Below, piece by piece: positions 13,999 to 35,525 of a stretch of 44,315 nt of DNA. This DNA comes from an uncultured Microcaldota archaeon (GTDB taxonomy: Archaea; Micrarchaeota; Micrarchaeia; Burarchaeales; Fermentimicrarchaeaceae). Below the pieces are notes generated by a model. The model worked only from the letters and a program-made list of their open reading frames with translations, was not told where the DNA came from and did no database searches. Every line of letters starts with the position of its first letter. Within the stretch, counting starts at the first letter, position 1. The stretch spans positions 1 to 44,315 of the forward strand of contig CAIXRF010000038.1 of assembly GCA_903921825.1 (NCBI GenBank). Direction: 5' to 3'. Made by a program: the position numbers and the translations under genes.

Positions 13999-14010
13999 GC
14001 TGCAGGCAGA

Positions 14011-15928: not shown

Positions 15929-17263
15929 TTAGCCGAGCTGCCCGCAGGTTCCGTCGGACTGGCACCCATAGCCGCTCGGGCAGCCGCATACCGTGCACAG
16001 CGAGGTCATGGTGCCGTTTCCGCTGCAGAAGAGCGGCTTGTTCGTCGCGGAGCAGCGGTTGGGGAGCGTGCCGTCGCTGCACTGCTGGAACTCATATACA
16101 ATGCAGAGCTCGCTCGTGGAGTTGCATGTCTGGTCCGCCGGGCAGCCGCACGCATCGCAGTTCGCGATGAATTGGCCTATGTCCCCGCAGTAGTATGGCT
16201 TGTTCACGGTGGAGCAGCTGTTGAGTGGAGTTCCGTCAAAGCAGGCATTCTCGACGCCCGCCGGCACCCCCCCGCAGAATGCGGCGCAGGCGGCGTGGCA
16301 TACCGCGGAAGTCGTTTCCGGGCATCCCGCGGTGCAGTTCTCCATGCACGTCTGGGCAATTCCCCCCATTACCGCATAGGCGGAGGTTCCGGTGGCGTTT
16401 ATTGAAACGCCCTCGCGCAGCACAGTTGCCGCGTCCTGCACCTCCGCACCTCCATCATCCCTTACCAGGTAGTCCACTCCGGACATGCTGGTTATCTCGG
16501 CCTGCGGAGTGAACAGTATTGTGGAGGGGTTCGCGAGCGTGAGCGTGCTGCCCAGGTCGAATATGAGTTCCACGCCTGAATTCCCGCTCTGCGTGACCGG
16601 AACCAGGTCCACGAACACGTATCTCGGCCTCGAGGCGTTGACCGGATGGATTGTGTCGTTGTATGTGACCGTGATGTTCCTCAGCTCTATGAGCAGGCGC
16701 GTGTGGGTCCCGATGCCTATCCTCCCGCGCCCCATGATGACCGTCTTGCCGTCGAGTTCCTTTAGCGAGTAGTTCTTCACCCCGCCAGTGAGAAGCTCCC
16801 AGCCGCCTCCGGCCCCTGAGCGGTAGGTTGCGAGCTGCCCTACGGAGATTACAACCGAGTCGTATGGGCTTGCGTTCGCATTCCGCACGCCAAGGAAAAT
16901 GATGAGCATTCCTTGCATTTCTGTAGGCTGCGCCGGGCCGCCGCTAAGGAGCACATCCTCGCCGCTGCCTATGTTGCTGAAGACGCCAGTTCCGCCGGTT
17001 CCACCCGTGCCGCCCGTTCCACCGGTTCCACCTGTCCCACCAGTGCCGCCGGTTCCACCTGTCCCGCCGCCCACGGAGCCTCCGCCGCTCGGCGTGTATT
17101 CGGCACCGCTGCACCTGCACTCAGGATAGTTGGTTTGCGTCTGTCCAGGAGAGCAGAGGTTGCGGCAGACGTTTGGCGTCTGCATGCCTCCCGAAGAGCA
17201 CCCGAAAAGCAGCAGGGCTGCGACGATTATTGAAACTGTGACGGCTGCGTGGAACTGCCTCAT
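15929..17263 (-). CDS. secreted Cys-rich protein with GGT repeat linker and possible DUF4382 domain
   Basis: Hydrophobic N-terminus with LFGCSSGG, (GGT)n linker, DUF4382-like beta domain, two C-terminal ~45 aa Cys-rich repeats (C.DGT..N.CS..NKP..C...CGCP....C). Confidence 0.6.
   Translation of the reverse strand: MRQFHAAVTVSIIVAALLLFGCSSGGMQTPNVCRNLCSPGQTQTNYPECRCSGAEYTPSGGGSVGGGTGGTGGTGGTGGTGGTGGTGGTGGTGVFSNIGSGEDVLLSGGPAQPTEMQGMLIIFLGVRNANASPYDSVVISVGQLATYRSGAGGGWELLTGGVKNYSLKELDGKTVIMGRGRIGIGTHTRLLIELRNITVTYNDTIHPVNASRPRYVFVDLVPVTQSGNSGVELIFDLGSTLTLANPSTILFTPQAEITSMSGVDYLVRDDGGAEVQDAATVLREGVSINATGTSAYAVMGGIAQTCMENCTAGCPETTSAVCHAACAAFCGGVPAGVENACFDGTPLNSCSTVNKPYYCGDIGQFIANCDACGCPADQTCNSTSELCIVYEFQQCSDGTLPNRCSATNKPLFCSGNGTMTSLCTVCGCPSGYGCQSDGTCGQLG
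16985..17080 (-). repeat. (Gly-Gly-Thr)n coding repeat
   Basis: GGTGGTGGTGGTGGTGGTGGTGGTG in the 444-aa secreted protein. Confidence 0.85.
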
Positions 17264-17304: not shown

Positions 17305-17496
17305 TCATCTGCCGCCTGAGCTGAACGGCACCCCGGAGCACCCGCAATTCGGATACGGCGCCTGCGACTGCCCTGGCGAGCATAGGCTGTGGCAGACCTT
17401 CGGCGCGGTCATGCCGCTTGCGGTGCAGCCGAAAATCACCAGGGCCGCGACTACTATGCACGCGAGCAACACTGCATGGACTAGCTTCATCCACAT
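17305..17496 (-). CDS. small secreted/lipoprotein-like Cys-rich protein, short paralogue of upstream gene
   Basis: MWMKLVHAVLLACIVVAALVIFGCTASGMTAPKVCHSLCSPGQSQAPYPNCGCSGVPFSSGGR aligns to N-terminus of 15929-17263 product. Confidence 0.6.
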   Translation of the reverse strand: MWMKLVHAVLLACIVVAALVIFGCTASGMTAPKVCHSLCSPGQSQAPYPNCGCSGVPFSSGGR

Positions 17497-17530
17497 CACC
17501 GCTGATTTTTCGCTGCCCTGCAATAAAAGG

Positions 17531-18814
17531 CTATTCCAGAATCTGGCGCAGGACGATGTCGGGATCGAACGGGAGCAAATCTTCGTATCTCTGGCCGACG
17601 CCGAAGAAGAGCACGGGTACGCCGCTCGCCCGCGCCACGGAAAGCGCCGTTCCACCCTTCGCGTCGCAGTCCAGCTTCGTGAGGATTACGCCATCGAGCC
17701 CTATCGCCTCCTTGAACGAACGCACCTGCTCGACGAGGGCGTTTCCCGCGATGCTCTCGCCAACGAAGATTTTGAGGTCGGGCTTCGCGACGCGCGCTAT
17801 CTTCTTCAGCTCGTCTATGAGGTTGCGGTTCGTCTCCTGCCTTCCCGCGGTGTCCATGAGCACGACGTCGATTTTGTGCGCCTTCGCGTAATTGACCGCG
17901 TCGAAGCACACCGCGGCGGGATCCGAGCCATAGCCGTGCTTTATCGCCTTTATGCCGAGCCTGTTCGCGTGCTCCTCCGTCTGCTCTATCGCAGCTGCGC
18001 GGTAGGAGTCGCTCGCAGAGAAGATGACCGACTTGCCTGCGCGCATGAACATCTCCGCAATCTTCGCCATCGTTGTGGTCTTGCCCGCGCCATTCGGCCC
18101 CACGAAGAGCAGCTTCAGCGGCTCGCCCGTCCTGTTCTTCTCTTCCGCGGCTTTCAGCAAATCGGGCCCGCGCAGATCCAGCGTGTCCCGGAGCGCGGAT
18201 GCGACCGCGCCCCTTATCGCCTTCTGCACCTCGCCGCGCTTCACCTTCTTCCCCACGAGCTTTTGCTTCAGGTCCTCCGCGAGCGACTGCGAAACTTCGA
18301 ACGCGACGTCTGCCTCGAGGAGGGACATCTTGAGCGCCTCCAGGAGGTCGTCTATGTCCTTCTCCTTCACTTCCACTTCGCCCAGGATGATGCCCTTCAC
18401 CTTGCTCTCCAGCGAAAGGCTAACTTTCATCTTCTTCGGCTCCTCCGCTGGCCTCGCTTGGGCAACTGCTGCGGGTTTCCTCACTTCTGGGATGAACGTT
18501 GGCTTTTTTGCTTCAGGAACAGGCGCATGCGGAACTGGAGCTGGCACCTGCCTCCTCACTTCAGGAACAGGCATAGGCTTTTTTGCTTCAGGAATAAGCA
18601 CGGTCGGAACGGGAGCTGGCGCCTGTCTTTTCACTTCAGGAACGGGCGCGGGTTTTCTAGCTTCTGGACTAGGTTTGGGTGTTATCACTTCAGGAACAGG
18701 TGCGGCCTTCTCCACCTCGGCGGCCGCAGGAGACGCCTCGCCTATCTTCTGCTCCTCCCGTTTGGTGAGCGAGTCTATGAACGAGGAAATCTTGTTCTTG
18801 AGCAGCCCGAACAA
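17531..18814 (-). CDS. ftsY: signal recognition particle receptor FtsY
   Basis: GPNGAGKTTTMAKIAEMF, DTAGRQETNRNLIDELKK, TKLDCDAKGGTALS; Pro-rich repetitive N-terminal extension. Confidence 0.94.
   Translation of the reverse strand: MFGLLKNKISSFIDSLTKREEQKIGEASPAAAEVEKAAPVPEVITPKPSPEARKPAPVPEVKRQAPAPVPTVLIPEAKKPMPVPEVRRQVPAPVPHAPVPEAKKPTFIPEVRKPAAVAQARPAEEPKKMKVSLSLESKVKGIILGEVEVKEKDIDDLLEALKMSLLEADVAFEVSQSLAEDLKQKLVGKKVKRGEVQKAIRGAVASALRDTLDLRGPDLLKAAEEKNRTGEPLKLLFVGPNGAGKTTTMAKIAEMFMRAGKSVIFSASDSYRAAAIEQTEEHANRLGIKAIKHGYGSDPAAVCFDAVNYAKAHKIDVVLMDTAGRQETNRNLIDELKKIARVAKPDLKIFVGESIAGNALVEQVRSFKEAIGLDGVILTKLDCDAKGGTALSVARASGVPVLFFGVGQRYEDLLPFDPDIVLRQILE
18500..18700 (-). repeat. Pro-rich ~21-aa repeats in FtsY N-terminal extension
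   Basis: PEARKPAPVPEVKRQAPAPVPTVLI / PEAKKPMPVPEVRRQVPAPVPHAPV / PEAKKPTFIPEVRKPA. Confidence 0.8.
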
Positions 18815-18818
18815 CTGC

Positions 18819-19262
18819 TCATCCCTCCCTTACTTCAGGGGAGACGTTCATCTTTCTCATCAGGCCGCGTGCCTGCGAGTCTATGACCTGCAGCCTCTGT
18901 GCAGCCCTGCCGGCATCCTTCTCTGCGGATGCGAGCAGCGACTCTATACTCTTGAAGCGGGCCTCGAGCACCGCGACCGCTTCCTCGGGCTTCATCTCCA
19001 CTGCGGTGTTGGCGCCAAGGTCCATGAGGACCGTTCCTCCCTCAAGTTTCGCTGGCACGAGCGCGCCGCCCCCGACGGGCACGAAAGACTTTGCGGCGCC
19101 CTTCTTGATGTTCCTCAGCGCTTCCATCGCCATGTTCAGCTGCATCATGCTCTCCTGCATCTGCCCCATGCGCTGGCTTATCATCTGCCCCTGCTGCTGC
19201 AGCAGCTGCGCCTCGTAAGCGAGCTTCTGAAGCTCCACCTCGTCCTTGCTTTCGTCTGCCAT
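18819..19262 (-). CDS. prefoldin alpha subunit
   Basis: Coiled-coil ends around PVGGGALVPAKLEGGTVLMDLGANTAVEMKPEEA; sits between LX and ftsY as in other archaea. Confidence 0.88.
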   Translation of the reverse strand: MADESKDEVELQKLAYEAQLLQQQGQMISQRMGQMQESMMQLNMAMEALRNIKKGAAKSFVPVGGGALVPAKLEGGTVLMDLGANTAVEMKPEEAVAVLEARFKSIESLLASAEKDAGRAAQRLQVIDSQARGLMRKMNVSPEVREG

Positions 19263-19441
19263 CAGCTCTCCACCTTCGCCACGCTTTTTATCACAATCCT
19301 CGTCCTCTTGGCACCGTGCGCGCTGCCGAGAAGCTTGAACGCGATCTCCTTCGCGACGCGTTCGTTCGGCGCATCGACCTCCTTCACGAACTTCCTCTTC
19401 TCAGTTCCGAGGTCGATTACGCCCTGCACCGCAAACTTCAT
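19262..19441 (-). CDS. ribosomal protein LX (L18a/L20a)
   Basis: Manually translated (absent from ORF track): MKFAVQGVIDLGTEKRKFVKEVDAPNERVAKEIAFKLLGSAHGAKRTRIVIKSVAKVES*. Confidence 0.85.
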   Translation of the reverse strand: MKFAVQGVIDLGTEKRKFVKEVDAPNERVAKEIAFKLLGSAHGAKRTRIVIKSVAKVES

Positions 19442-19450
19442 GCCTTCACC

Positions 19451-19951
19451 TCACTCCTGGTACGCCATCACTCCGAGCGACAGCGCGTACAGCTTCCTTT
19501 CCATGTAATTGTTGAGCGCCTTCAGCCGCGAGGCGATTACCCGCTCCTGGGAGATCTCGTCCTCCATCCCCTCCAGCACTTTCCTGTCGTTTCCCGCGGC
19601 AACGAGCATTGTGCGCGGAATCACCTTCGCGCCCATGCCAGCAAGCCCGTCGATGTACAACGCCATCAGCACCTCGTGCGCAGGAAGCATTGCCTTCAGG
19701 TCGGACAGGCCAATTGCCTCGGCCGCAGACCAGTCCAGCAGTGCATCTCCGATGAGCACGGGCCTAAACGGGTCGCGCGAGCCTGGCGGGCTTGCCTTCT
19801 CCTGGAGCTTCTGCATCTCCGCCTGCGCGAGCGGCTGCACGCCGTCCTCGCCCAGAGTTGCTATGACAATCTCGCAGCGTCTCACTTGCATGCTCCCGAC
19901 AGCCACTGCCTCCCCGTCTACTTGGGGAGGAAGCATATTCTCTTGTCTCAA
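19451..19951 (-). CDS. hypothetical protein inside translation cluster
   Basis: Intact ORF MRQENMLPPQVDGEAVAVGSMQVRRCEIVIATLGEDG...; no recognised family. Confidence 0.6.
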   Translation of the reverse strand: MRQENMLPPQVDGEAVAVGSMQVRRCEIVIATLGEDGVQPLAQAEMQKLQEKASPPGSRDPFRPVLIGDALLDWSAAEAIGLSDLKAMLPAHEVLMALYIDGLAGMGAKVIPRTMLVAAGNDRKVLEGMEDEISQERVIASRLKALNNYMERKLYALSLGVMAYQE

Positions 19952-22296: not shown

Positions 22297-22409
22297 GAAA
22301 CCCCTCCGCCTGCATGTTACAGGCTCCTCCTTCCGGAGGATTATCGCGGTTCCTTCCAGTTCACAGAACGAGAAAGAACGTAGTTATTCCGGCGGCAAGG
22401 TATATATTG

Positions 22410-22718
22410 CTACGCCTGCCGCCCCGCGCCTTTGTAGATGAGGTAGGCCTTGCTTCCGCATTCGCACTCGTAGAGGACCTTCCCCTTGCGCGGGACGAGC
22501 CGCACCTTCACGTTGAATCCCGGCACCCAGAAGCGGTTGCATTTCCTGCAGAACTTCCTTTTCAGCTTGCCAAGCCGGATGCGGTATCTCATCGCAAGCT
22601 TCCTTGCGAGCTCGACGTAGCGCATGCTCCTTTTGGGATGGCCCTTCGCATTCTTCTCGGCCAGCCCCAGCAGTATCGCAATCCGCTCATTCACAATCTG
22701 GTGCACGGATTCGGGCAT
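22410..22718 (-). CDS. RNase P protein Rpp21/Rpr2 (RNP4)
   Basis: ARKLAMRYRIRLGKLKRKFCRKCNRFWVPGFNVKVRL...CECGSKAYLIYKG zinc-ribbon. Confidence 0.88.
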   Translation of the reverse strand: MPESVHQIVNERIAILLGLAEKNAKGHPKRSMRYVELARKLAMRYRIRLGKLKRKFCRKCNRFWVPGFNVKVRLVPRKGKVLYECECGSKAYLIYKGAGRQA

Positions 22719-22753
22719 GGTGAGGTAATCCCGAATGGAGTTAAAAAAGAAGA

Positions 22754-22879
22754 TGGGCCCGTGGAGATTTGAACTCCAGACCTACGGCTCTCCCAGAGCG
22801 CCTAAACCGTGCGGATTCCGTCTTGTCCCGCACGGCGTCGTATAAGACCGCCGCTCTGACCAGGCTGAGCTACGGGCCC
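22754..22879 (-). tRNA. tRNA-Ile(UAU) with 51-nt intron (intron 22790-22840) after position 37
   Basis: Cloverleaf folded by hand: acceptor GGGCCCG/CGGGCCC, D arm GCTC-AGCCTGGTCA-GAGC, anticodon loop CUUAUA|A, T arm TGGAG-TTCAAAT-CTCCA; exon sum 75 nt; intron contains CCGTGCGG/CCGCACGG hairpin. Confidence 0.88.
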
Positions 22880-22942
22880 GTGAGGGTAGATTTCTCATGC
22901 GGTATTTTTAAGAACTGCGATGAAATTTCAGTTGGTGATGGA

Positions 22943-23593
22943 TTGAGGACGTTTGCTGTTCTTATCACGCTGCTGCTCGCCGCGGCTTCCGCTTACGCCT
23001 GCGTCGTATATGGCGGGGGCGCAGTCTACCTCAACAAGCCCAACGTCACGGTGAATCTTTCTGCCATACTGGAAAGCAACGCGACTAGGGGGGCGAACTA
23101 CACGACGTCGAATGGCTCCGTCTTCTACCGCAGCCATTACAACGAAACGCTCCTCGTCTCGCTTGGGCAGGATGAGTATGGATGGCTGCTGAGGGTCGGG
23201 CTGCCGAACGCCTCGGAGATGGGACAGCCGAGGGAAATCAATTGGAGCGAGGCGGTCTGGACTGAGCTTGACTGGCTCTGGAGCCACAAGGTGATAAACG
23301 GCACAAATCCAGGCGACGTTTCGCAAATCGTGAATCTCCTCGCAAACAACTCCAATTCCTACGCTTACTGGAAGGATGGGAACTGGACTGCAATCCCGAA
23401 CAACTGCTTCCCAAATGGCAACTGCGTGCGCTGCGGCCCTGCGGGCGCGGAGCTGAATGCAACTTTGCCGCCAAATGGACTTGAGATTCCTGAGAAGACG
23501 GATGATGAGAAGGTGGGGGCATGCCTTTCCGGATTTGCCCTGCTCTTCCTCTCAGTCCCGCTCCTACTCCTTTCCCATCGCGTAGGTAGCTAG
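22943..23593 (+). CDS. secreted, sequon-rich protein with C-terminal TM anchor
   Basis: TTG start then signal peptide LRTFAVLITLLLAAASAYA, many N-X-S/T sequons, C-terminal LSGFALLFLSVPLLLLSHRVGS. Confidence 0.6.
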   Translation: MRTFAVLITLLLAAASAYACVVYGGGAVYLNKPNVTVNLSAILESNATRGANYTTSNGSVFYRSHYNETLLVSLGQDEYGWLLRVGLPNASEMGQPREINWSEAVWTELDWLWSHKVINGTNPGDVSQIVNLLANNSNSYAYWKDGNWTAIPNNCFPNGNCVRCGPAGAELNATLPPNGLEIPEKTDDEKVGACLSGFALLFLSVPLLLLSHRVGS

Positions 23594-26041
23594 GCGCATA
23601 TGCGCTCCTGCAGCGCTATATGCAAGCTTAGTATTCACATCACCGTTCATTTCGTCAATCAGCGCGAGCGCGAGCGGAATCTCCTTGCCTGTGAGAATCG
23701 GCAGCCTCTCTGCGAGGGTGATGTAGGCTGAAACTTTCCGTTCCAGCTGGAGTTTGCCGAACCTGCGCAGGAGCTCACGTATCTCCTTCTCATCCGGGAT
23801 GGCTCCGTGGTCAGGTGCTGTTCCGGACTCCAGCGCCGTTATATAGTCCCCGATTTTGTCTTTCACCGCTTCTTTCCGAACCGTTTTGTGCGGCGTATTT
23901 ACCTGCGGTTCCGGCTTGGCCAGCTCAAGCGGCGCAGGAAGTGGAAGCACGCCTAATACCGCATGGCCGTACTTCTCCTCGGGAACCTCGAATCCGAGCC
24001 CCGCCTCCCCGGCCTCCGCCCTCTGCGTCAGCTCCTTTGCAATTATCCCTTCAAGTACACGGAGATAGCCTACCAGCAGTTTTGCGCGCGGCCTTTCCAT
24101 GTCAATCATGATGCCGGGGAGCCTCTTCCATGCAAGGTCGCTCCTGCCCAATGCCTCGGTTGCACGCCATATTTCGTGGTAATTAACCTTCGTTTTCCTC
24201 ATGATTGCTCTGGGATGGAATATGCCATTCGCGATGCACCAGGCAATTGCCAGCCGCTGCGGGTTTGTTATTACGCGGCGCGCGGCCAGCGACACGTTGT
24301 ATTCCTCAAGCAGCCCGTACACCTCAGCTCTGTCCTTGCTGCTGCAATGCTGCTTGAACGGGACCGTCTCCATGATTTTTTCAAACGGTATTTTTGCCAC
24401 TGCTTTGAGCTGGTGGCTGCAGTTGTAAGAGCGGAATACTGGCCACTGCGCCTGCTCCCTTTTGACGACTCCCATGCGCGTCAGCCTGCACAGCGCGTCC
24501 GCTTGAGGAGCATACAGCTCCGCATCTCTCGCAGTACCATACGTTATCCAAGGCGGGTTCCTCTCTTTCTGGATTGACTCCTGCAGCTCGGCAAGGTTCA
24601 GAAGCTGCGGGCAGAGTCGGTCCCCTCCGCTTCTAAAAAGGGCATCGAGATTCAGGTGATTGCTTTTGCGGAGCTGGAAGGCCTTTGCCGCAGTGAGAAC
24701 TTCGCTGCCGCGCCCGGTAATCTTCAGCCCCTTCCCGTCATTCCAGACGAGCCCCGCCGTCTCAAGCCATTGAAGGCCTTCGGCTACGCGCCTTTTTTTT
24801 GCCTTGAGGGTGCGTGAGATATTAGCGGCATCATCTTCCCCTTCCGCCACGCAGTTAAGGATGCGCAGGCGGCGTTCGGTGGTCACGAGCCCGGAAACCA
24901 TCATTCTTGCAGCAAGCACATACTGGTCGCCGCTGATAACCGCCCTCCTGGCCGATATGCTTGGCTTTCTCTCCGGCGCGAACGTCCCGCTGCTCTCCAT
25001 TTTCGCGAGATACACGCTGAGGTCATACTCGGAGAGCTTAGTCATTTTCAAAAGCACGTAGCGGTGCGGGATTTTCCCGCCGCGCTTCAGTATGGCGTCG
25101 GCAACCGCATCAGATTTTTCTGCCACGCTCTCCCGGCCTGCGCTCATCCCGAGCCGCTGTTTCACCAATTCCACGCGCTGCTTGCTCCATCCTGTTCCCG
25201 CAATAAGTTCATCCATCGTTGGCTTGCAGTAGGGCCTTTCCAGCATCCTGTATGCCCTGCGGAAGTAGGCGTTGTCGTTGTCCTCCCGTTCCTTCCAACT
25301 CAGCGGGGTCGCCGCGTTCTTGGGTGCCACCCAGTTGCTCTTCCGCATGTCTTCAAGCACATTCCTGTCTAGGTGCCTCAAATGGCCCTTTGCAACGCAT
25401 CTCGAAATCATCAGCTTATCGCATATGGCCCTTCTTTTCTTCGGAAGCACCCCTCCATTTTCCGCAGCCGCGGCAACTGCAGCATCAAGAACCTCTGCCC
25501 TCCTTTCCGGGCAGGTCTTCAAGCCCAGCTTTCTAATTATGAGATTTACAGTAATGGGGCCAATGCTCCTCGCATCGGCAAGTTCCCAGCGCGTCGGCTT
25601 GCGATATGGCCTTTCAAGCGCTTTGTATGTTTCCAAGAGTGCCGCTATTTCCCTCTGGAGCAATGTTTCCAGCTTTGCCAGGCATTCCCCAACCGCTGCA
25701 GTCCCAACTGGCCCTTCCTTCCCGTCGTCCTCCGCTTTCCTCTGCATCGCGGAATACGCTTTCCATTCACCGTTGGATAATTGGATTGAATTCGCAAGGT
25801 CTTTCTTGAGGATGTTAATCGCCCTAAGCGAAAGGTTTTCCCAAAAATACAATATCCTCTCCTTTTCCTCGTCAGGCCTCGCCCTCAGCCATGAAATCCC
25901 GTTCTTTTCTATCCCCCGCGATGCCGCTGCAAAATCCACCCCATTCCCGCCGTTGCTTATCTGCCTGCGCGCAAAATCAGCGACTAGACTATGGACCTGC
26001 TTCTGGACGGAAACAGCTGGAAAGGTAGTGGTCCCAGACAT
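23564..26041 (-). CDS. 825-aa multi-HTH modular protein (paralogue of the giant protein)
   Basis: Contains W-module GISWLRARP, duplicated ERPYxKPTxxEL HTH, GGKIP module, wHTH-like region and C-terminal AHMRLATYA module shared with 26109-31625 product. Confidence 0.8.
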   Translation of the reverse strand: MSGTTTFPAVSVQKQVHSLVADFARRQISNGGNGVDFAAASRGIEKNGISWLRARPDEEKERILYFWENLSLRAINILKKDLANSIQLSNGEWKAYSAMQRKAEDDGKEGPVGTAAVGECLAKLETLLQREIAALLETYKALERPYRKPTRWELADARSIGPITVNLIIRKLGLKTCPERRAEVLDAAVAAAAENGGVLPKKRRAICDKLMISRCVAKGHLRHLDRNVLEDMRKSNWVAPKNAATPLSWKEREDNDNAYFRRAYRMLERPYCKPTMDELIAGTGWSKQRVELVKQRLGMSAGRESVAEKSDAVADAILKRGGKIPHRYVLLKMTKLSEYDLSVYLAKMESSGTFAPERKPSISARRAVISGDQYVLAARMMVSGLVTTERRLRILNCVAEGEDDAANISRTLKAKKRRVAEGLQWLETAGLVWNDGKGLKITGRGSEVLTAAKAFQLRKSNHLNLDALFRSGGDRLCPQLLNLAELQESIQKERNPPWITYGTARDAELYAPQADALCRLTRMGVVKREQAQWPVFRSYNCSHQLKAVAKIPFEKIMETVPFKQHCSSKDRAEVYGLLEEYNVSLAARRVITNPQRLAIAWCIANGIFHPRAIMRKTKVNYHEIWRATEALGRSDLAWKRLPGIMIDMERPRAKLLVGYLRVLEGIIAKELTQRAEAGEAGLGFEVPEEKYGHAVLGVLPLPAPLELAKPEPQVNTPHKTVRKEAVKDKIGDYITALESGTAPDHGAIPDEKEIRELLRRFGKLQLERKVSAYITLAERLPILTGKEIPLALALIDEMNGDVNTKLAYSAAGAHMRLATYAMGKE

Positions 26042-26045
26042 CCTT

Positions 26046-26073
26046 CTAGAACGCGAGGTTTAGGTATATGAAT
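26046..26073 (-). promoter_or_regulatory. conserved TATA/dyad element upstream of 825-aa gene
   Basis: ctagaacgcgaggtttaggtatatgaat; 27/28 identical to 31628-31655; contains CATATACC (minus strand) 21 nt before ATG. Confidence 0.7.
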
Positions 26074-26108
26074 CCTGCGCTGCTTTTCTCGCCGTGGGCG
26101 CGCCCGGG

Positions 26109-29100
26109 CTATTGGTTATGCCTCTTCCAGTTGCGGAATTCCTCGACAAGGCTTCTGTAGTTCTGCCTGAAGACGAGAAGGGCCTGCGCAATGAGCCGCC
26201 CATCCTCGGGCCGCTCCTTCTCGAGGAAACGGAAATTGCTTCCGTCGAATATGAAGTCTGACTCCTCCAGCGCGCCCATGTACTTGAAGAGCGTTTCCTT
26301 TTCCCGTTCTCCGGCTTTGAGCATATTCCGTGCTGCTTCCCTGGCAGTTTCAAACCGCTCCTTCTTCTTTCCTTCCCAGTTCTCCGCATACACGATAAGT
26401 TGCATGTGCGCACGCACTGCCTGACGGGCAAGTGCATCGTTCGTATCATTATCCATTTTCTTTATCTTCCTGATTGCCTCTTCCCTCTCCTCATCAAGGA
26501 GCGCCAGCGCGCCCACCGTATCCTTATCCGTCTTCTTGCTTTGGATGAGCGCCGTCCTCTCCCTGTCAATTTCCCCGAGCCGCCCAGCAAGTGCCTTGAA
26601 GTCATCAACTTTCTCCTGGGTTTTCGCACTAACGTTTCTGGTCAACGCGGAGGGAATCTCAACTGGAACGGGTTGGGGTGGAGGCGGAGGCGGGGGTGCG
26701 AACTTCCTCACGCTGGGCGTAAGCAGGATGAGCCGCGTGTATAAGTCGGGTGCCTTCAGCACCAGCTCACGCGCTGTTTTTTCGTCCATCCCGGCGATGA
26801 GCGCGAGTGCCTCTTCCCTCTCCGGCTTGGTAAGCTGCGTCACTTCCATCTTTTTCACGAGCTTGATGAAGAAATCGACTTCGTTCTCTGCATCATCCTG
26901 GAGCGTTGCGATGAGAAGAGTATGGGGTGACTGGGCCTGTTCTCCGCCGACACCTTCGCCGGGCATTCCGTCCGGCTGCTCGTCGAGCTCCTCGTCCGCT
27001 GCTCCCCCCAGCTCCTTCAGTGGCGGTTTATTCGGCAATCTCCCAGCCGCACTGCCCCGTTCCTTCACCGGGGGCTTTCCTGGCTCCCCACCAAGTTCGC
27101 TCCCCCGTTCCCCAACTGGCGGTTTTTTCGGCTTCCTGCCAACTGCCTCTTTTCTCCCGGTGGCTCTTTCGCCCGCCCCAGTGCGTGGCTTGCCCCGCCC
27201 AACTGCCCGTGGGACCTTCAGGTCCGAGGCTTCTATCGGGAGTGGAAGCGGGATGGGGGTTGTCTTCAGCGCCTTGCCCCAGAGCTTCGCCGGGAGTTTT
27301 GCCTTGAACCCGTTCTCCTTGAGCTCGTCCGCGACTATGCGTTCCAGTTCGCGGAGGTAGTTGGTTATTATAACCGCGCGAGGCTCCTCCATGTTTATCC
27401 TGATGCCATGCTGCCTCTGCTGAATGCTTCCGTTTAACCTGAAATATCTTTCGATGCTCAGGGCGGTGTTCATCGAGAGCCCGGTCCGTTCTCCTATCGC
27501 TTGGCAGTTGAAAATCTTGTTCGCGATGCACCAGGCGACCCTTAGCCGCGAGGGGCAGTCAATGCCTGCATCGCCCCCGGGCGGGATATTGTGCTCCGCG
27601 AGGAATGCAGCGACCTCCGCCTTCTCCCTTTTGGAATACTTGAGCTTGAGGGTGCCCACCTTCGCAATCTCCTTGAACGGGATTTCTCCGATTTTTTTGA
27701 ATGCGGCGCTGAACTCGTAAGCACGGTAGAGGGCTTCCGCCCGCTCGGTCTCGATGACGTTCATCTCCATGAACCTTTGGAACGTCTTGATGAGGACGGG
27801 CAGCTCAATCTTTCCCCCCGCACCGAACGATATCCATTCCCGCTCTCCCTTCACCGAATCCTGCATGTCCGCCAGGTGGAGGAATGCCGCGCAGGATTCC
27901 GCATGCCTGGTCCATCCGAAAACATCCGTGAGATCCCATTTCCGCTTCCTGTTGAAGGAGGCGGGCGGCTTTCCCTCGAAGAAAATCGCGTCCGTAGCAT
28001 TCAGAACTTTTCTTCCCCTTTTCGTTGCAAAATACCCGCCATCGCGCATTGCGACCAAGCCCGCATTCTTCAGGTGCCGCAGGCCCTCGTAAAAATCGCC
28101 TGCCGAGCCGCTTATTTCTGATATTATTTTTGAGGGCGTGCTTTCGCCGGATATTATTGCCCTAAGGAGGAAATAGCGGTAATCAGCGGGGATGAGATAG
28201 GAGACCATCCTCCTTGCGGCAAGCCTGTATGCGTCATTCACGACTTCCGCATTCTTCCATCCGAGCTTCCGCACTTCGAGTTCCTCCGGCTCGGGCACAT
28301 TGACGTACTGCTTGAGCCTGAACTTGCTGAGGCCGGTCTTTTTCTCTAAGACGTAGTAAGGAGGGACTACTCCGCCGTTCTCATCGGTTGCCTTTTGGAT
28401 TTTATCCATTGTCTCGGCAATTCGTGGGTCGCAGAACTCCAGGTTCGTTCCTTTCTTTGCGGCGCGGACATTTTCTACGCTCCAGCCGAGCTCTTTGGCG
28501 AGCTCGTCTGCCGTGGGGTTGCGGCGTGGCGTTTTTAGTTTCTCGTAGGCCTTTTTGAGGCGGTCCGGGTTCGTTTCCTTTCGCTTCTGCGCCCGCTTTC
28601 CTCTGGATGTTCCGCTTTTCTCCTCTGCCTCTATCGGCGGTGGAAGCGGGAGGGACACAAACTTGTCGCGCATTCCAGTTTCGGGAACTTTCACTTTGAT
28701 CCTTCTCTCCTTCAGCTCGCCAGCGGCAATCCCTTCGAGCCGGCGCAAATAATCAAGCAGCATCCTTGCGCGCTTTTCCTCCACATTTATTCTGATTCCC
28801 GGCAGTCTCTTGCGCACATGCCCCGCGTCCTCGAACATCCCGGCAACCATCGTCACGTCCGTCCGCCTCATCCCCGTTTTTCTCGCAATTGCGTTGTGCG
28901 TGAACATCCCGCTTGCAATGCACCAGCTGACCAGCAGCTTGGACGGGCTGTCAACGGTTTCGCGCACGGAAAGCGGGATGCCATGTTTTTGGAGCAGCTT
29001 ATCCGCTGCCTGCCTGTCTTCCGATGAGTAGTGCTGTTTGAACGGGCATTTCCGCGCAATCTCGCCGAAAGGAATCCGTTTCAGCTTTGCAAAATCTTCT

Positions 29101-31625
29101 CCGAAGCTGTAAGCGAAGCGCCCTGACTTTCCGACATCCTCTTCCCAGACGAGTCCCATCTTTGCCAGCTTGTAGAACGACGCGCTGTCGTGCAGGTAAA
29201 GCTCTGCCTCCCCGCTCTGCCCGTGGGTCACCCATCCCCTTTCAGGAACTGACTCCTGCATGTCCGCGAGGTCCAGGAATGCGGCACAGATGCCGCTGTG
29301 CGCAGCATTGCTGAATATTTTTGTGAGGCTCCAGTCCTTCTTCTTGCCCAACTTTGAAGGCGGGTGGCCCTGGAAGAAAATCTTCTCTGTCGCCTTTAGC
29401 ACCTTCTTTCCACGCTTGGTGACTGCATAACGTTCACCATCCTGCAGGACAAGCCCCGTATCCATGAGATGTTTCTGTTCGAGGTGCAACGACCCGGAAG
29501 ATGCGCCCGTCGTTTTCGCGATTTCATATGCACTCTTCCCGTCCTCTGCCAGGTGCTTGAGAAGGAAGTAACGGCAGCCGGTGGGAGCGAGCTGCGATAT
29601 CATTAACCTCGCAGCCAGTTTGTAGGGATCATCGGTAATCGTCGCCTTCTCCAACTCGAACGTTGCGGCTTTGGCTTCCGGGAACACGCCCGCTTTCATC
29701 AAGTGTGGCAGCTGCCCGTCTACCTGGAACCGCGAAAGGCCAGTCAGCTTCTTCAGCATTACTTTGTTCGGAACCTTCCCGCCATTCTTCCCAACCGCCT
29801 CCACTATCCTGTCGCGCGCCTTCGCTGTGCGGAGGTCGCAAGTTTCCAGGCCGAGAGCGCCCTTGATTGCGAGGACTTTTTTCCTCTTCCATCCTGTTTC
29901 ATCCACGAGCTCATCAATCGTCGGTTTGCGGTATGGCTTCTCCAGTGCTTTATGCGCTTCCTTCAGCATTTTTCCATCCGAAATTGACACTTGCCCGGCA
30001 ACCGGCTTACGCAATTTCTCTGCGTCCACATTTTCAGTAACTCCCGCAGGGCGTAGCTTCCCTTCGCCGGCAAGTTTCAGCGCAAGCTTTCCCAGCTCAA
30101 TCTCGTTCAGCTTGAGTTCGGCGGAAATCTCCGCGACGCTCTTCCTTCCGGCAATCATCTCAAGAAAGAGTTTCTCTCGGTCCACGGACGCGGCGACAGA
30201 GGGTTTTGGAGTGCCTGTCTGCGCCGTTCGCCCCACGGGGATATCGGGCGTTGGCACTGCATTTCCCCTCTTCTCTGCGGCGTCCTCCTTTTTCTTCAGC
30301 TCCAGCAGCTTTGGGTAAATCGCCCACTCTTCCTCGGTAATGCGGTGGCGCGTCCAGTTTTTAGTATAGTTCTCGTTCTTCTCCTTCTCGAAGCGCTCGA
30401 GAATCCTGTTCCTCGCGCTCTTCGAGAGTTTCTCGCAGTTGCCCAGTATTTTCATGCGGAGTATCATGGGCCGCCGCCTGAACCAGTCGAACCCGTAGAT
30501 GACAATGTTGTTGGAAACCCGCTCAAAATCAACTTCCATCGTTTCCGCGTCTTGCCTGATTTTCGCCTTCATCTCGCTGAAAACCTGCTTTTCGAACGCA
30601 TCGAGCGCTTTGGTGGATTCGAAATCCTTCAGCAGGCGGCTTGCTGCCCTGTGCGAAAGCTTGCCCCAATTGGAATAGATGGCCTTCTTGGAATTCGGCG
30701 CCTGCTCCCGGAGCCATTCAAGCCCGCCCTTTCTTATCTGCCGCGAGGCGGATTCGAGGAACTGTTCCCACAAAGTCGCCGAAACGGCGGGCGCCTCCGG
30801 CTGCGGCACGCCAGCCTTCGGCTGCTCAGTCCGTGACGCAATATCTTGTTTCGTTTCCGCTTTTGGCTGAGGTTCCAGTGTCGCCTTTTCCCTTGGCGTT
30901 TCAGGTTGCTTTGTCTCCATTTTTGGCGGGGCGCCTGGCGGTTTCGTTTCTTTCGGTGCTTCAGGTTGCTTCGCGGCTACCTTGTGCGGAACTTCTGGTG
31001 CTTTCGTTTCCCGTGGTGGTTCGGGTGGCTTTGCTTCTACCTTGTGCGGAACCTCCGGTTGCGGCATTCCCCGCAATCCTTCGGCCCGCCTCGCCGCTGC
31101 CTTCCGCTTCCTTTCATTCCTTATTTGGCAATAAGTTTGCCATTCGACATCAGGAAGGCGCTCGCGCTTCTGGACTTTTTCTTTCAAGAATGCGAAGAGG
31201 ACACCCGCTGCCTGCTCCGTGAGGCCACGCCAGCCATCCAATATCTGGGCGCGCCTGTCCCTCGGCTGTCCGGCGAACCAGTCAAAGCCGAACTCGCTTA
31301 GCATTGTTGAAACGGAGGCCAGCTGCACGGGCACGGCGACGTGAGGAAGCGGGCTGCCGCCAACCCAGGCAACGAACTGCTTGCCAAAATCATCTTCCGA
31401 AAAACCGGGCGGAATCTTCATGCCGTGCTTTTGCGGGTTGAGCCAGACCTCCCTTACTTGTGCCGGGTATTTCTCAGCGCGGGTGACCAGCGCCCGCTTC
31501 ACCATCTCCTTGTCGGATGTGACGCTGAAATCCATGTATCTCTTGGCAAGCATTAAAGTCCCGAGAACTTCTGGGTGGGGCTTCTCCTTCTTCTCGGGCG
31601 GCTGCAGTTCAGCAATAGAACTCAC
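26109..31625 (-). CDS. giant (~1838 aa) modular multi-HTH protein with Pro-rich linkers
   Basis: Open ORF 26109-31685; GTG at 31625 preferred because a TATA-like element lies just upstream inside the longer ORF; two tandem ~460 aa HTH units, three W-modules, repetitive linkers. Confidence 0.8.
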   Translation of the reverse strand: MSSIAELQPPEKKEKPHPEVLGTLMLAKRYMDFSVTSDKEMVKRALVTRAEKYPAQVREVWLNPQKHGMKIPPGFSEDDFGKQFVAWVGGSPLPHVAVPVQLASVSTMLSEFGFDWFAGQPRDRRAQILDGWRGLTEQAAGVLFAFLKEKVQKRERLPDVEWQTYCQIRNERKRKAAARRAEGLRGMPQPEVPHKVEAKPPEPPRETKAPEVPHKVAAKQPEAPKETKPPGAPPKMETKQPETPREKATLEPQPKAETKQDIASRTEQPKAGVPQPEAPAVSATLWEQFLESASRQIRKGGLEWLREQAPNSKKAIYSNWGKLSHRAASRLLKDFESTKALDAFEKQVFSEMKAKIRQDAETMEVDFERVSNNIVIYGFDWFRRRPMILRMKILGNCEKLSKSARNRILERFEKEKNENYTKNWTRHRITEEEWAIYPKLLELKKKEDAAEKRGNAVPTPDIPVGRTAQTGTPKPSVAASVDREKLFLEMIAGRKSVAEISAELKLNEIELGKLALKLAGEGKLRPAGVTENVDAEKLRKPVAGQVSISDGKMLKEAHKALEKPYRKPTIDELVDETGWKRKKVLAIKGALGLETCDLRTAKARDRIVEAVGKNGGKVPNKVMLKKLTGLSRFQVDGQLPHLMKAGVFPEAKAATFELEKATITDDPYKLAARLMISQLAPTGCRYFLLKHLAEDGKSAYEIAKTTGASSGSLHLEQKHLMDTGLVLQDGERYAVTKRGKKVLKATEKIFFQGHPPSKLGKKKDWSLTKIFSNAAHSGICAAFLDLADMQESVPERGWVTHGQSGEAELYLHDSASFYKLAKMGLVWEEDVGKSGRFAYSFGEDFAKLKRIPFGEIARKCPFKQHYSSEDRQAADKLLQKHGIPLSVRETVDSPSKLLVSWCIASGMFTHNAIARKTGMRRTDVTMVAGMFEDAGHVRKRLPGIRINVEEKRARMLLDYLRRLEGIAAGELKERRIKVKVPETGMRDKFVSLPLPPPIEAEEKSGTSRGKRAQKRKETNPDRLKKAYEKLKTPRRNPTADELAKELGWSVENVRAAKKGTNLEFCDPRIAETMDKIQKATDENGGVVPPYYVLEKKTGLSKFRLKQYVNVPEPEELEVRKLGWKNAEVVNDAYRLAARRMVSYLIPADYRYFLLRAIISGESTPSKIISEISGSAGDFYEGLRHLKNAGLVAMRDGGYFATKRGRKVLNATDAIFFEGKPPASFNRKRKWDLTDVFGWTRHAESCAAFLHLADMQDSVKGEREWISFGAGGKIELPVLIKTFQRFMEMNVIETERAEALYRAYEFSAAFKKIGEIPFKEIAKVGTLKLKYSKREKAEVAAFLAEHNIPPGGDAGIDCPSRLRVAWCIANKIFNCQAIGERTGLSMNTALSIERYFRLNGSIQQRQHGIRINMEEPRAVIITNYLRELERIVADELKENGFKAKLPAKLWGKALKTTPIPLPLPIEASDLKVPRAVGRGKPRTGAGERATGRKEAVGRKPKKPPVGERGSELGGEPGKPPVKERGSAAGRLPNKPPLKELGGAADEELDEQPDGMPGEGVGGEQAQSPHTLLIATLQDDAENEVDFFIKLVKKMEVTQLTKPEREEALALIAGMDEKTARELVLKAPDLYTRLILLTPSVRKFAPPPPPPPQPVPVEIPSALTRNVSAKTQEKVDDFKALAGRLGEIDRERTALIQSKKTDKDTVGALALLDEEREEAIRKIKKMDNDTNDALARQAVRAHMQLIVYAENWEGKKKERFETAREAARNMLKAGEREKETLFKYMGALEESDFIFDGSNFRFLEKERPEDGRLIAQALLVFRQNYRSLVEEFRNWKRHNQ
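27000..27145 (-). repeat. in-frame tandem repeat in giant protein linker (KPPxxERG unit)
   Basis: KPPVGERGSELGGEPG / KPPVKERGSAAGRLPN / KPPLKELGGAADEE, three ~16-17 aa copies. Confidence 0.75.
30860..31075 (-). repeat. in-frame Pro/Lys-rich tandem repeat in giant protein
   Basis: PEVPHKVEAKPPEPPRETKA / PEVPHKVAAKQPEAPKETKP / PGAPPKMETKQPETPREKAT, ~20 aa period. Confidence 0.8.
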
Positions 31626-31627
31626 CC

Positions 31628-31655
31628 CTAGAACGCGAGGTTCAGGTATATGAAT
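31628..31655 (-). promoter_or_regulatory. conserved TATA/dyad element upstream of giant gene
   Basis: ctagaacgcgaggttcaggtatatgaat; GAAC-n5-GTTC dyad adjacent to CATATACC TATA-like box. Confidence 0.7.
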
Positions 31656-31662
31656 ATTAGAG

Positions 31663-32784
31663 TTACTGGGATTCCGCTTCCTCACTTTCGGCGCCTGGCT
31701 TCGCCTTTGCTGCTTCCGCCCGCTTGCCTGCCTTCCCGATCATTAGCAGGCGTTCCAGGGCGTCCGGTCGAATGCTTTCCAGCTCGTGCCTTGCCGCATG
31801 GCCCATTCCCCGTATAAGGGCCAGTTCAGCCTTTGAAACCCTGCCGCTTCCCTCAGCGATATAGAGGAAGAGCTTGACCCTGCAGCCCAGCGGAAGCTTG
31901 TTGAACTCCTCCACAAGCGCATCCATGTCCCTGATGTCGCGGAGAAGAACATCGGTTGGAAGCATCCCCAGCCTGAGCAGCTTTACGCACGCCAGGGCTG
32001 CGCCATCATCAGTGCGCGCCGCTGCTGCCCCCGGCTTCCAGTCCCACTGGAATGCGCCGCAATCCTTCAGCCTTTCCAGGCACCTCTTAACCCTCTCCCT
32101 GGAGAACCTGGTTTCCCTTATGAGAGCGGAGGGCCTGGGGACCTTGCCGCCCCGCTTCGCCACAAGCCCGGCTATTGTGTCGAGCGCATGCGCAATGTTC
32201 GCGAAACATGTCTCAAGCCCGAGCCTCTCCGCGCGCTTGTATACCTTGTGCGCGCTCAGGCCCGTTTCATCCACAAGCTCAGCAATCGTAGGCCCGCGGT
32301 AGGGCTTCGCCAGGGAGCGGTGTGCGGCACGGAATTCCTCGTCCTCGCGCTTCTGCCGCGCGCTCGCCTCTTCTGCGTATCTTTCCCAGAGGGCCTTCCT
32401 TTCCTTTGTCGCCTTCCTCCCGACATTTGCGCGCCACTCCGCAACGGCCGCCCTGAACTCATCAACCCGCTCCACCAGCTCCGGGTCGCGCCCCTTCTGC
32501 TTCTGGTAGATGTTGCGGTGGAGGATTCCGAGCGCCCTCTTTTCCGCCAGCCCCGTCCCCTTCCGCGCCATATCGGCATACCAGGGGAGCTGGTAGCCCC
32601 TGTTCCCTTCATCTTTCCAAATCTCCTCAAGGTTTGAGACAAACTTTTTGACTGCGAAGTTCCGAATCCTTGCCCTCAGCTTCTTCGGCTCCTCGTCCGC
32701 CATCTTCGCATACCTGTTGAACTCGGAAGACGGCACCTTCTTTTGGAGCGTCTCTGTATTTGGCGCATGGGCAACGATAGTCAT
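31663..32784 (-). CDS. 373-aa modular HTH protein (third cluster member)
   Basis: SLAKPYRGPTIAELVDETGLSAHKVYKRAERLGLETC and RGGKVPRPSALIRETRFSRERVKRCLERL modules shared with giant; start at ATG 32784 (MTIVAHAPN). Confidence 0.72.
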   Translation of the reverse strand: MTIVAHAPNTETLQKKVPSSEFNRYAKMADEEPKKLRARIRNFAVKKFVSNLEEIWKDEGNRGYQLPWYADMARKGTGLAEKRALGILHRNIYQKQKGRDPELVERVDEFRAAVAEWRANVGRKATKERKALWERYAEEASARQKREDEEFRAAHRSLAKPYRGPTIAELVDETGLSAHKVYKRAERLGLETCFANIAHALDTIAGLVAKRGGKVPRPSALIRETRFSRERVKRCLERLKDCGAFQWDWKPGAAAARTDDGAALACVKLLRLGMLPTDVLLRDIRDMDALVEEFNKLPLGCRVKLFLYIAEGSGRVSKAELALIRGMGHAARHELESIRPDALERLLMIGKAGKRAEAAKAKPGAESEEAESQ

Positions 32785-32816
32785 CGCATCAGCCGCGCTT
32801 TCCGTCTCTAAAAAGC

Positions 32817-33116
32817 TTACTCCCTCCGCGGGAGCTCCCCTTTCCCGTGGGCCCAAGCGTCGAATGCTTTGCCAAACGCTGTCTTGAGGAAGTCTGGGGG
32901 AACCTTCTGCCCGTATTCTATTGGGTTGCACCAGACGTTCTTCACGTAATCCCCTAGCTTCTCCGCCCTTTCAATCAGGTCGTCCATCGCCTTCTTCCTC
33001 TCCTCGCCCTTTGAGTGCGCGCACTTTTCCGCAAGGTCGAAGATGCTTTCCTTGCGCACTTCCACAGCATGTAGGAGGAACGGAGAGATTGGTTTGAATT
33101 TCCTAACTGGACTCAT
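32817..33116 (-). CDS. 99-aa single-module protein homologous to giant N-terminus
   Basis: RAEKLGDYVKNVWCNPIEYGQKVPPDFLKTAFGKAFDAW aligns to RAEKYPAQVREVWLNPQKHGMKIPPGFSEDDFGKQFVAW of giant; ATGA overlap with upstream gene. Confidence 0.72.
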   Translation of the reverse strand: MSPVRKFKPISPFLLHAVEVRKESIFDLAEKCAHSKGEERKKAMDDLIERAEKLGDYVKNVWCNPIEYGQKVPPDFLKTAFGKAFDAWAHGKGELPRRE

Positions 33117-34105
33117 CTGCCCCGCCTCATGTATTCCCGGACGAGCTCCGCGTATGGCGTGTCGGTTCCCTTCGCCCTGTTTATAACATCCCACTCGTTG
33201 TAGCAGACTGCCATGAAGCGCTTCTCGTTCTTTTCCGTGGGCATGAAGGAGAAACCTGTGGTAAGCTCAACAAGGCCCATGTATTCGAGGAGCAGGTCTC
33301 TCTGCGGATTCTTCACTGTTTCCAGCTTCGTCTCAAGCTCTACCTTCCGCGCCTCAGCCGCTTTGCGGTCCTTGGTGTAATTGGCTGCGGGGCGCACCTT
33401 TCCATTCACAGTGGCGGGAGTGGCGGTTGACGCAGCGAGCAGCTTTTCCGCATCGCTTGCGGTAAGCGTTGCGCCGTAATACAGGTCGCGCTCCTTCTTT
33501 GGGGGAGGCCCCTCCAGCGAGTAGTGTCTTGGAGTGTAGGATTCCTTATCTTCTTTCCTAAGCGCTTTTACTTCGTCCTTTACCGTGCTCGGTTTTCCGT
33601 ACTCTGCCTCCATCTTGTGGAGGAGAACCCGGTCGCCGTTATTCGCGGCGTGTTCCCTCAAATCCCAAAGCAGCCGCTTCTGAGCATCAGTGGAGAGCAG
33701 CTTCCACTTTTTCGAGACAAACTTGTGGAATTCCTGCGGCCGGGCCAAAAGCCAGCCATAGCCGCCGACCGCGATTCCCACGCTCGCAAGCCCGATTACC
33801 TGCGTTTCTATGCCATTCAGCTCTTCCTTTCCAATGCCCTTTCCGGTTATGAAACCGTAAATTTCATCAACCGCTTCCCCGGCGACTTTCGCCTTTTCGT
33901 TCCAGAGCTTGGTTCTCGCCTCGGAATCGCAAGCTGGGCTGGAGCGTTCGGTCTCGAGGTCGGAAATTTTGCCCATCGCGGTCGTGGCGAGCGCGATGGC
34001 GTCGACCACAATTCGTGCTCTTTCCGCCTTAACAGCCGCGTCGGCCATGAATTTAGTATTCGTGAAGGCCGAAGCCGGCTTCTCCTGCAGGACAGTACCA
34101 CTCAT
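33113..34105 (-). CDS. 330-aa modular protein with W-module and C-terminal YMG module
   Basis: GYGWLLARPQEFHKFVSKKWKLLS and RDLLLEYMGLVELTTGFSF shared with giant; MSGT start (34105) matches N-terminus of 825-aa paralogue. Confidence 0.72.
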   Translation of the reverse strand: MSGTVLQEKPASAFTNTKFMADAAVKAERARIVVDAIALATTAMGKISDLETERSSPACDSEARTKLWNEKAKVAGEAVDEIYGFITGKGIGKEELNGIETQVIGLASVGIAVGGYGWLLARPQEFHKFVSKKWKLLSTDAQKRLLWDLREHAANNGDRVLLHKMEAEYGKPSTVKDEVKALRKEDKESYTPRHYSLEGPPPKKERDLYYGATLTASDAEKLLAASTATPATVNGKVRPAANYTKDRKAAEARKVELETKLETVKNPQRDLLLEYMGLVELTTGFSFMPTEKNEKRFMAVCYNEWDVINRAKGTDTPYAELVREYMRRGR

Positions 34106-34133
34106 CGCAACACCTACCATATTGCGCCGTTCT

Positions 34134-34181: not shown

Positions 34182-35525
34182 ATGAGAAATTTCCCCGTGG
34201 ATTTGGGAGCAGGCCTGAGGAAAGCGCTCGCGAAGCTGACGGGCGCCGCGATAATTGACGAGAACGCAGTACGGGAGTTCACGAAGGAGCTCCAGCGCAT
34301 CCTCATCTCCAACGACGTGAACGTGAAGCTGGTTTTCGAGCTGTCGAAGCGCATAGAGGAGAAGGCGCTGAAGGAGAAGCCGCTTCCCGGCGTCTCTCCG
34401 AAGGAGCACGCCGTGCGCGTCGTATATGAGGAGCTTTCGAAGATGATGGGCGAGAGGCACGAGCCGAAGCTGGGAAAGCAGAAAATTCTGATGCTCGGCC
34501 TGTTCGGCAGCGGGAAGACCACGTCTACGGTGAAGGTGGCGAAGTTCTACCAGACCCGCGGCCTGAAGAGCGGGGTAATCTGCTGCGACACGTTCAGGCC
34601 CGCCGCATATGAGCAGCTGCAGCAGCTTGCGGAGAGGAGCGGGGTCCCGTTCTACGGCGAGAAGGGCGAGAAGAGCGTGGAGAGGATAATCCGGAACGGG
34701 CTGGTGAAGCTGCAGGAGAACGACGTAATCATACTTGATTCTTCCGGGAGGAGCGCGTTCGATTTGGATTTGCAGCGCGAGCTGAAGCTCATCTCGCAGC
34801 ACTTTGAGCCGAACGAGCGCTACCTGGTGATTTCTGCGGACATAGGGCAGGTTGCCGGGAAGCAGGCAGCGGAGTTCAACGCCTCCGTCCCGCTGACCGG
34901 GGTGTTCATTACGAAGATGGATGGGAGCGGAAAGGGAGGGGGCGCGCTATCCGCGGTGGCGGCGACAGGGGCGAAGGTGGCGTTCATAGGCGTCGGGGAG
35001 AAGACCCAGGATTTGGAGGTGTTCGACTCGAAGAAATATGTGGGAAGGCTGCTGGGCTTCCCGGATTTGGAAACGCTAATCAGCAAGATGGAGACGATTG
35101 CGAAAGAGGAGAACATCAAGCCGGAGCAGTTGCTCGAGGAGAAATTCACGATAAAGGCATTCTACGAGCAGCTGAGGGCGACGAAGAAGATGGGCCCGCT
35201 CAAGTCCGTTTTCGGCATGCTCGGGATGGCAGACCTGCCGAAGGAAATGGTGGAGCAGAGCGAGGAGAAGCTGAAGAAATACGAGGTAATCATCAACTCC
35301 ATGACTCCTGCGGAGAGGGACGACGCGTCCCTACTGAAGAAAAGCCGCTCAAGGCAGGAGAGGATAGCGAAGGGCGCGGGCGTGAAGGTGGAGGACGTGC
35401 GCCGCCTGCTTACCGAATTCGAGAAGATGGAGAAGATGATGGTGATGTTCAAGAAGAACCGCGGGTTCAGGAAGCAGATGGAGAAGATGATGAAGGGCGG
35501 GTTCAAGATGCCCGGAGGAGGGTGA
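34182..35525 (+). CDS. srp54: signal recognition particle SRP54
   Basis: [55 protein letters not shown]-terminal Met-rich M domain. Confidence 0.95.

Follow-up and report, generated by a model that had tools for sequence, protein, structure and literature searches.

Positions 23564–34120 of the window, the 44,315-nucleotide stretch of DNA that was analysed, are occupied by five co-oriented minus-strand ORFs, all of which are open, encoding proteins of 825, 1838, 373, 99 and 335 amino acids (Table 1). The original prediction had described five consecutive minus-strand ORFs here, and the sizes that it gave hold for the giant protein, P0001, P0003 and P0004, the exception being P0005, which comprises 335 rather than 330 residues. 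The intergenic spacing, taken in order from P0005 to P0001, is −4, +32, +37 and +67 bases, which is operon-like. The longest possible ORF for the giant protein encodes 1858 aa; the GTG listed in Table 1 is most likely its start, since the orthologue in a second genome (G001, see below) begins at the matching place. Predicted pI values of the cluster proteins are basic, at 8.9–9.7, but lend weak support to DNA binding because many of the neighbouring proteins are basic too. GC3 lies between 0.65 and 0.73 in the cluster, compared with mostly 0.77–0.83 in its neighbours in the window.

Table 1. Features of the five-gene cluster and its boundaries (window positions).
Feature	Position	Strand	Remarks
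P0005	33113–34120	−	335 aa; opens the operon-like block; one W-module at 33593–33793
P0004	32817–33116	−	99 aa from ATG; overlaps P0005 by 4 bases; N-module about 32835–33062
P0003	31663–32784	−	373 aa; one tandem-HTH pair about 32053–32349; orthologue P0007 in G001, 83% identical
Giant protein	26109–31625	−	1838 aa from GTG at 31625
Giant N-module	31341–31568	−	
Giant W-module 1	31101–31328	−	
Giant W-module 2	30549–30761	−	
Giant W-module 3	30285–30533	−	
Giant unit 1	28707–29981	−	Order HTHa-HTHb-wHTH1-module C-wHTH2; modelled
Giant unit 2	27315–28574	−	Absent in the G001 giant; five ~54-aa repeats there instead
Giant C-terminal helical region	26112–26858	−	Weakly common with P0001 C-terminus (E 6e-4)
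P0001	23564–26041	−	825 aa; contains a W-module, a tandem-HTH pair, one full unit and a helical tail; missing from G001
P0001 W-module	25724–25933	−	Predicted five-helix bundle, pLDDT about 90
P0001 extra tandem-HTH pair	25409–25651	−	
P0001 full unit	24023–25279	−	
SRP54	34182–35525	+	Boundary; divergently oriented relative to P0005; conserved edge of the site
Secreted/membrane protein gene	22931–23593	+	Boundary; converging; also in G001 and G007; four-fold divergence 0.54
Intron-containing tRNA	22754–22879	−	Boundary; cluster lies on the tRNA 5′ side

ARAGORN calls the boundary tRNA as Ser-TGA, with an uncertain anticodon. The ORF at 22314–22772 (+) and the start of the ORF at 22769–23593 (+) were rejected as genes, being shadows of Rpr2 and the tRNA. 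Large flanking ORFs at 11815–13998 (+), 15929–17263 (−) and 41612–42874 (+) are without any Pfam match, as is a further one at either 17411–18886 or 18024–19508 (+).

Shared modules and their folds

BLASTP comparison among the five proteins revealed that P0001 matches the giant protein at 34% over 461 aa (E 1e-73), with P0003 and P0004 matching it at E 1e-18 and 1e-11, respectively, and P0005 reaching just E 0.003. The sharing of modules among the proteins is far above chance. A unit of ~460 aa, comprising a tandem HTH, a wHTH, a linker and a second wHTH, is present in three copies, and profiles cut from the aligned units were used as HMMs for the individual modules. A search of the five proteins gave three copies each of wHTH1, module C and wHTH2, and exactly five copies of the tandem-HTH pair (HTHa-HTHb) in three proteins, namely two in the giant, two in P0001 and one in P0003, the same count that had been predicted for an HTH motif. 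The wHTH1 and wHTH2 profiles give weak matches to one another, as expected of old duplicates. Since each unit contains four HTH-type domains, the giant would have about eight of them in all, compared with about six in P0001. The helical W-module occurs five times (three in the giant, one each in P0001 and P0005) and the N-module twice (P0004 and the giant). A W-module HMM built without P0005 still finds that protein at E 9e-10, the best score among 200 shuffled P0005 sequences being 4e-3. HTH domains were detected in neither P0004 nor P0005, so that the predicted sharing of modules across all five proteins stands by BLASTP and HMM, but extends to these two through the N- and W-modules only. 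Together, the BLASTP comparison, the leave-one-out test and the unit HMMs bear out the proposed origin by duplication and module shuffling.

Pfam scores and predicted folds likewise agree with the HTH and wHTH nature originally assigned to the modules. The giant wHTH1 scores above the cut-offs of PF25213 (40.8 bits versus 35) and PF14947 (33.6 versus 25.5), and P0001 falls below both. This likeness to ArsR/HVO_A0261/HTH_45-type wHTH proteins is at the domain level only, as those are single-wHTH families, whereas the wHTH here shares a repeated unit with three other HTH-type domains. One HTHa copy exceeds the cut-off for Pfam sigma-70 region 3 (30.5 versus 25.3 bits). No reliable family match was obtained for the W-module, the N-module or the rest of the unit outside the wHTH, and W-module matches to nanobodies in the PDB were dismissed as spurious. 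As the original prediction had it, the five proteins belong to no recognised family at full length in Pfam, PADLOC, PHROGs or NCBIfam.

An AlphaFold2 model of unit 1, built from four sequences (mean pLDDT 71, pTM 0.51), contains three-helix HTHs in succession, together with two winged HTHs. The model of P0001 has a mean pLDDT of 63, with a well predicted W-module and an uncertain domain arrangement elsewhere. Foldseek gave no significant match to the whole unit 1 model, and a search of viral structures gave none either. Local matches to the unit 1 wHTH include AspA (5k5q, TM to target 0.66, rmsd 2.2) and Sso10a (1r7j, TM to target 0.68, rmsd 1.9); their E-values of 0.22 and 0.44, and the best overall of 0.038, are not significant because the matches are local. 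AspA, from the AspA-ParB-ParA partition system of pNOB8, also shows a weak sequence match (E 0.01), but it is small, with a single domain (PDB chains of 84–98 residues), and is encoded with ParB and ParA. Genes for neither partner were found among the scanned neighbours of the cluster, and the AspA-ParB-ParA arrangement is therefore not that seen here. The likeness to Sso10a extends to a weak match of unit 2 to NCBIfam NF053610, at 23.1 bits, short of the 60 bits set as the family cut-off; Sso10a itself is a 10-kDa dimer formed via an antiparallel coiled coil, whereas the wHTHs described here lie within chains of 825 and 1838 aa.

SelB winged helices and RPC3/RPC6-type subunits were among the weak, non-significant fold matches. 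The latter, with the tandem winged helices and the HTHa copy that resembles sigma-70 region 3, would suit a large transcription-regulatory scaffold acting on a set of promoters, similar in layout, as opposed to homology, to the tandem-winged-helix parts of eukaryotic Pol III factors. Such a role is improbable, given that the fold matches lack significance, that a single HTHa copy matches sigma region 3 with all other sigma regions (2 and 4 included) absent, and that a general factor would be expected in more than two of 301 genomes.

Distribution and divergence at a variable site

The sample examined comprised 301 Micrarchaeota genomes. The full unit was found in two of these, the source genome (G000) and AlinenSediments_bin-3476 (G001), which is of the same family but another genus, and the W-module is distributed likewise. 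In both carriers the cluster occupies the same site, between SRP54 and a tRNA-RNase P Rpr2-S19e stretch, and since both hold it inside contigs with conserved flanks an assembly artefact is disfavoured. The order in G001 is SRP54, P0006, the P0003 orthologue, a 1632-aa giant, the membrane protein, a tRNA-like stretch, Rpr2 and S19e; this genome lacks P0001, P0004 and P0005. Repeats unrelated to unit 2 take its place in the G001 giant, the rest of the protein being kept. The five genes are accordingly not conserved as a set, only P0003 and a rebuilt giant being retained in one other genome, and the original picture of a set that acts and moves as one is not borne out.

The replacement repeats (L012, about 13590–14515; residues 942–1249 of the G001 giant, P0008) share a conserved H.(R/K)EWG.K.WKDA-like pattern. 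They have no significant family match, and HNH_repeat, at E 1.5, was not accepted as their identity. The G001 copy of the tRNA (L012, about 16340–16640) was found by neither Rfam nor ARAGORN, and its T-arm region appears to carry an extra insertion of ~44 bases, which might be a second intron of a non-canonical type.

In sister genera, the content between the same markers is different. SRP54 directly follows the tRNA in G005, which represents an empty site. Proteins of 451 aa (G003; L068 3731–5086, +) and 564 aa (G004; L067 4075–5769, −) with several AbrB/MazE-like repeats (PF04014) are encoded between SRP54 and the tRNA in two further genomes. They resemble the multi-HTH proteins in their site and in having tandem DNA-binding-type repeats in one long protein, but differ in fold and share no sequence similarity. 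G007, from a third genus, carries the membrane protein and, upstream of SRP54, two small genes (L047 8398–9432 and 9457–9969, −) that are related to one another and show a weak relationship to P0006 of G001 (E 3e-4); the pair are possible older residents of the variable site.

The A1 profile matches 107–109 genomes at E≤0.01. A wider family was nevertheless rejected, as nearly all matches outside the two carriers cover the generic wHTH stretch only (profile positions ~135–205). One of them, in an ~800-aa ORF of G006, belongs to a von Willebrand-type protein whose tail is a wHTH, and a match of G266 to P0003 was set aside as chance, the frame containing a stop. Use of the giant as query in the genome-contig scan gave no match, and literature searches found no description of such a system.

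Divergence between G000 and G001 was compared at four-fold degenerate sites in the cluster and in nine flanking genes. Values in the cluster are 0.23 for P0003 (95% interval 0.17–0.30), 0.23 for giant unit 1 (0.18–0.30) and 0.32 for the giant C-terminus (0.24–0.41), compared with 0.53–0.67 in eight of the nine flanking genes, the membrane protein included, and 0.44 in Rpr2, for which there are 25 sites only. The converging membrane-protein gene is therefore old and lies outside the young tract. The N-terminal 105 aligned residues of the giant give 0.48, from 21 sites only, and modules in this region seem to have been rearranged. Values of dS are 0.37–0.49 in the cluster versus 0.88–1.8 in the flanks, and dN/dS of the cluster is 0.24–0.40. 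On these comparisons, the simplest reading would be exchange or acquisition of the cluster after the two genera had split, with purifying selection acting upon it, although the low divergence may have other causes, such as gene conversion at this site or synonymous positions that are under unusual constraint. Since its core is present in two of 301 genomes and is younger than the surrounding genes, the cluster has the look of horizontal exchange, and is probably a functional, fast-reshuffling island.

The low four-fold divergence, the reduced GC3, the adjacent tRNA and the AspA-like wHTH fold would also be expected of cargo or a remnant of a mobile element, in which plasmid or virus DNA-binding proteins with a role in partition (centromere binding) or replication control have become chromosomal. 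This origin is quite unlikely. Genes for an integrase, ParA, ParB or a replication initiator are absent inside and directly beside the cluster, the queries tried have no relatives in IMG/VR, phages or plasmids, and there is no flanking direct repeat above chance. Integration at a tRNA usually uses the 3′ end, and the island is at the 5′ end; tRNA-borne integration was ruled out by this orientation together with the missing integrase and repeats.

The variability of the site, the horizontal exchange, the rapid change in architecture and the sporadic distribution could also be features of genetic conflict (defence or counter-defence), with HTH arrays that recognise invading nucleic acid or a partner promoter and module swapping that reflects an arms race. 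PADLOC matches point the same way in so far as they show weak similarity to the CRISPR-associated Csa3/CasR regulators, but they are confined to the generic wHTH, with no match to effector genes of known anti-phage systems. Moreover, searches of all five proteins against Pfam, PADLOC, PHROGs and NCBIfam revealed no effector domain, such as a nuclease, NTPase or toxin, and a conflict role is considered unlikely.

A tentative role in coating or bridging DNA

The reading that we prefer, with a probability of roughly 0.4, is that the horizontally exchanged island encodes tandem-HTH proteins that coat or bridge DNA multivalently, with W- and N-modules joining the proteins together. Multivalent DNA binding is the most economical activity to propose because there are about six to eight HTH-type domains and no other recognisable activity. 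Judging from the number of HTHs and the predicted fold, the giant and P0001 would bind DNA at many points at once, and the W- and N-modules, being present also in P0004 and P0005, would most likely join proteins to one another. DNA would in this way be coated or bridged by a lineage-specific architectural or silencing complex, situated atop the ordinary histones. The nearest folds favour this proposal, since AspA and Sso10a are both proteins that spread over DNA, bridge it or assemble into filaments along it (PMC5120986, PMC4941522). Further support comes from the multi-copy AbrB/MazE-like protein that G003 and G004 carry at this site, the swap of an array in the G001 giant, the dN/dS values and the restriction of the full unit to two genomes.

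Several points count against DNA coating. There are only two carrier genomes. Two histone-fold genes are present in each of them, so that there is no gap in chromatin proteins to be filled, and replacement of histones was ruled out. HTH arrays can alternatively bind RNA, SelB winged helices being among the fold matches, or act as protein contacts, and either could apply here.

A broader possibility, though a rather doubtful one, is a new modular system for DNA organisation or conflict, in the form of an exchangeable cassette, placed at a variable chromosomal site of Micrarchaeota, that pairs a lineage-specific giant protein, assembled from swappable modules with many DNA-binding domains, with small partners bearing W- or N-modules. 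Just as doubtfully, the giant in such a cassette might come in multi-HTH, HTH plus other repeat array, or multi-AbrB versions.

What the analysis adds is the variability of the site, the probable recent exchange and the replacement of entire DNA-binding-type arrays in the giant. It is unusual for very large proteins to consist almost entirely of HTH modules, and as Micrarchaeota genomes are small, 11 kb is a costly outlay for one sporadic island. The site between SRP54 and the tRNA provides a defined place in which to look for further versions. Should the proteins be part of a conflict system, they would represent a type of defence without a known effector; if they coat or silence DNA, they would give archaeal chromatin a layer that is specific to the lineage and moves horizontally.
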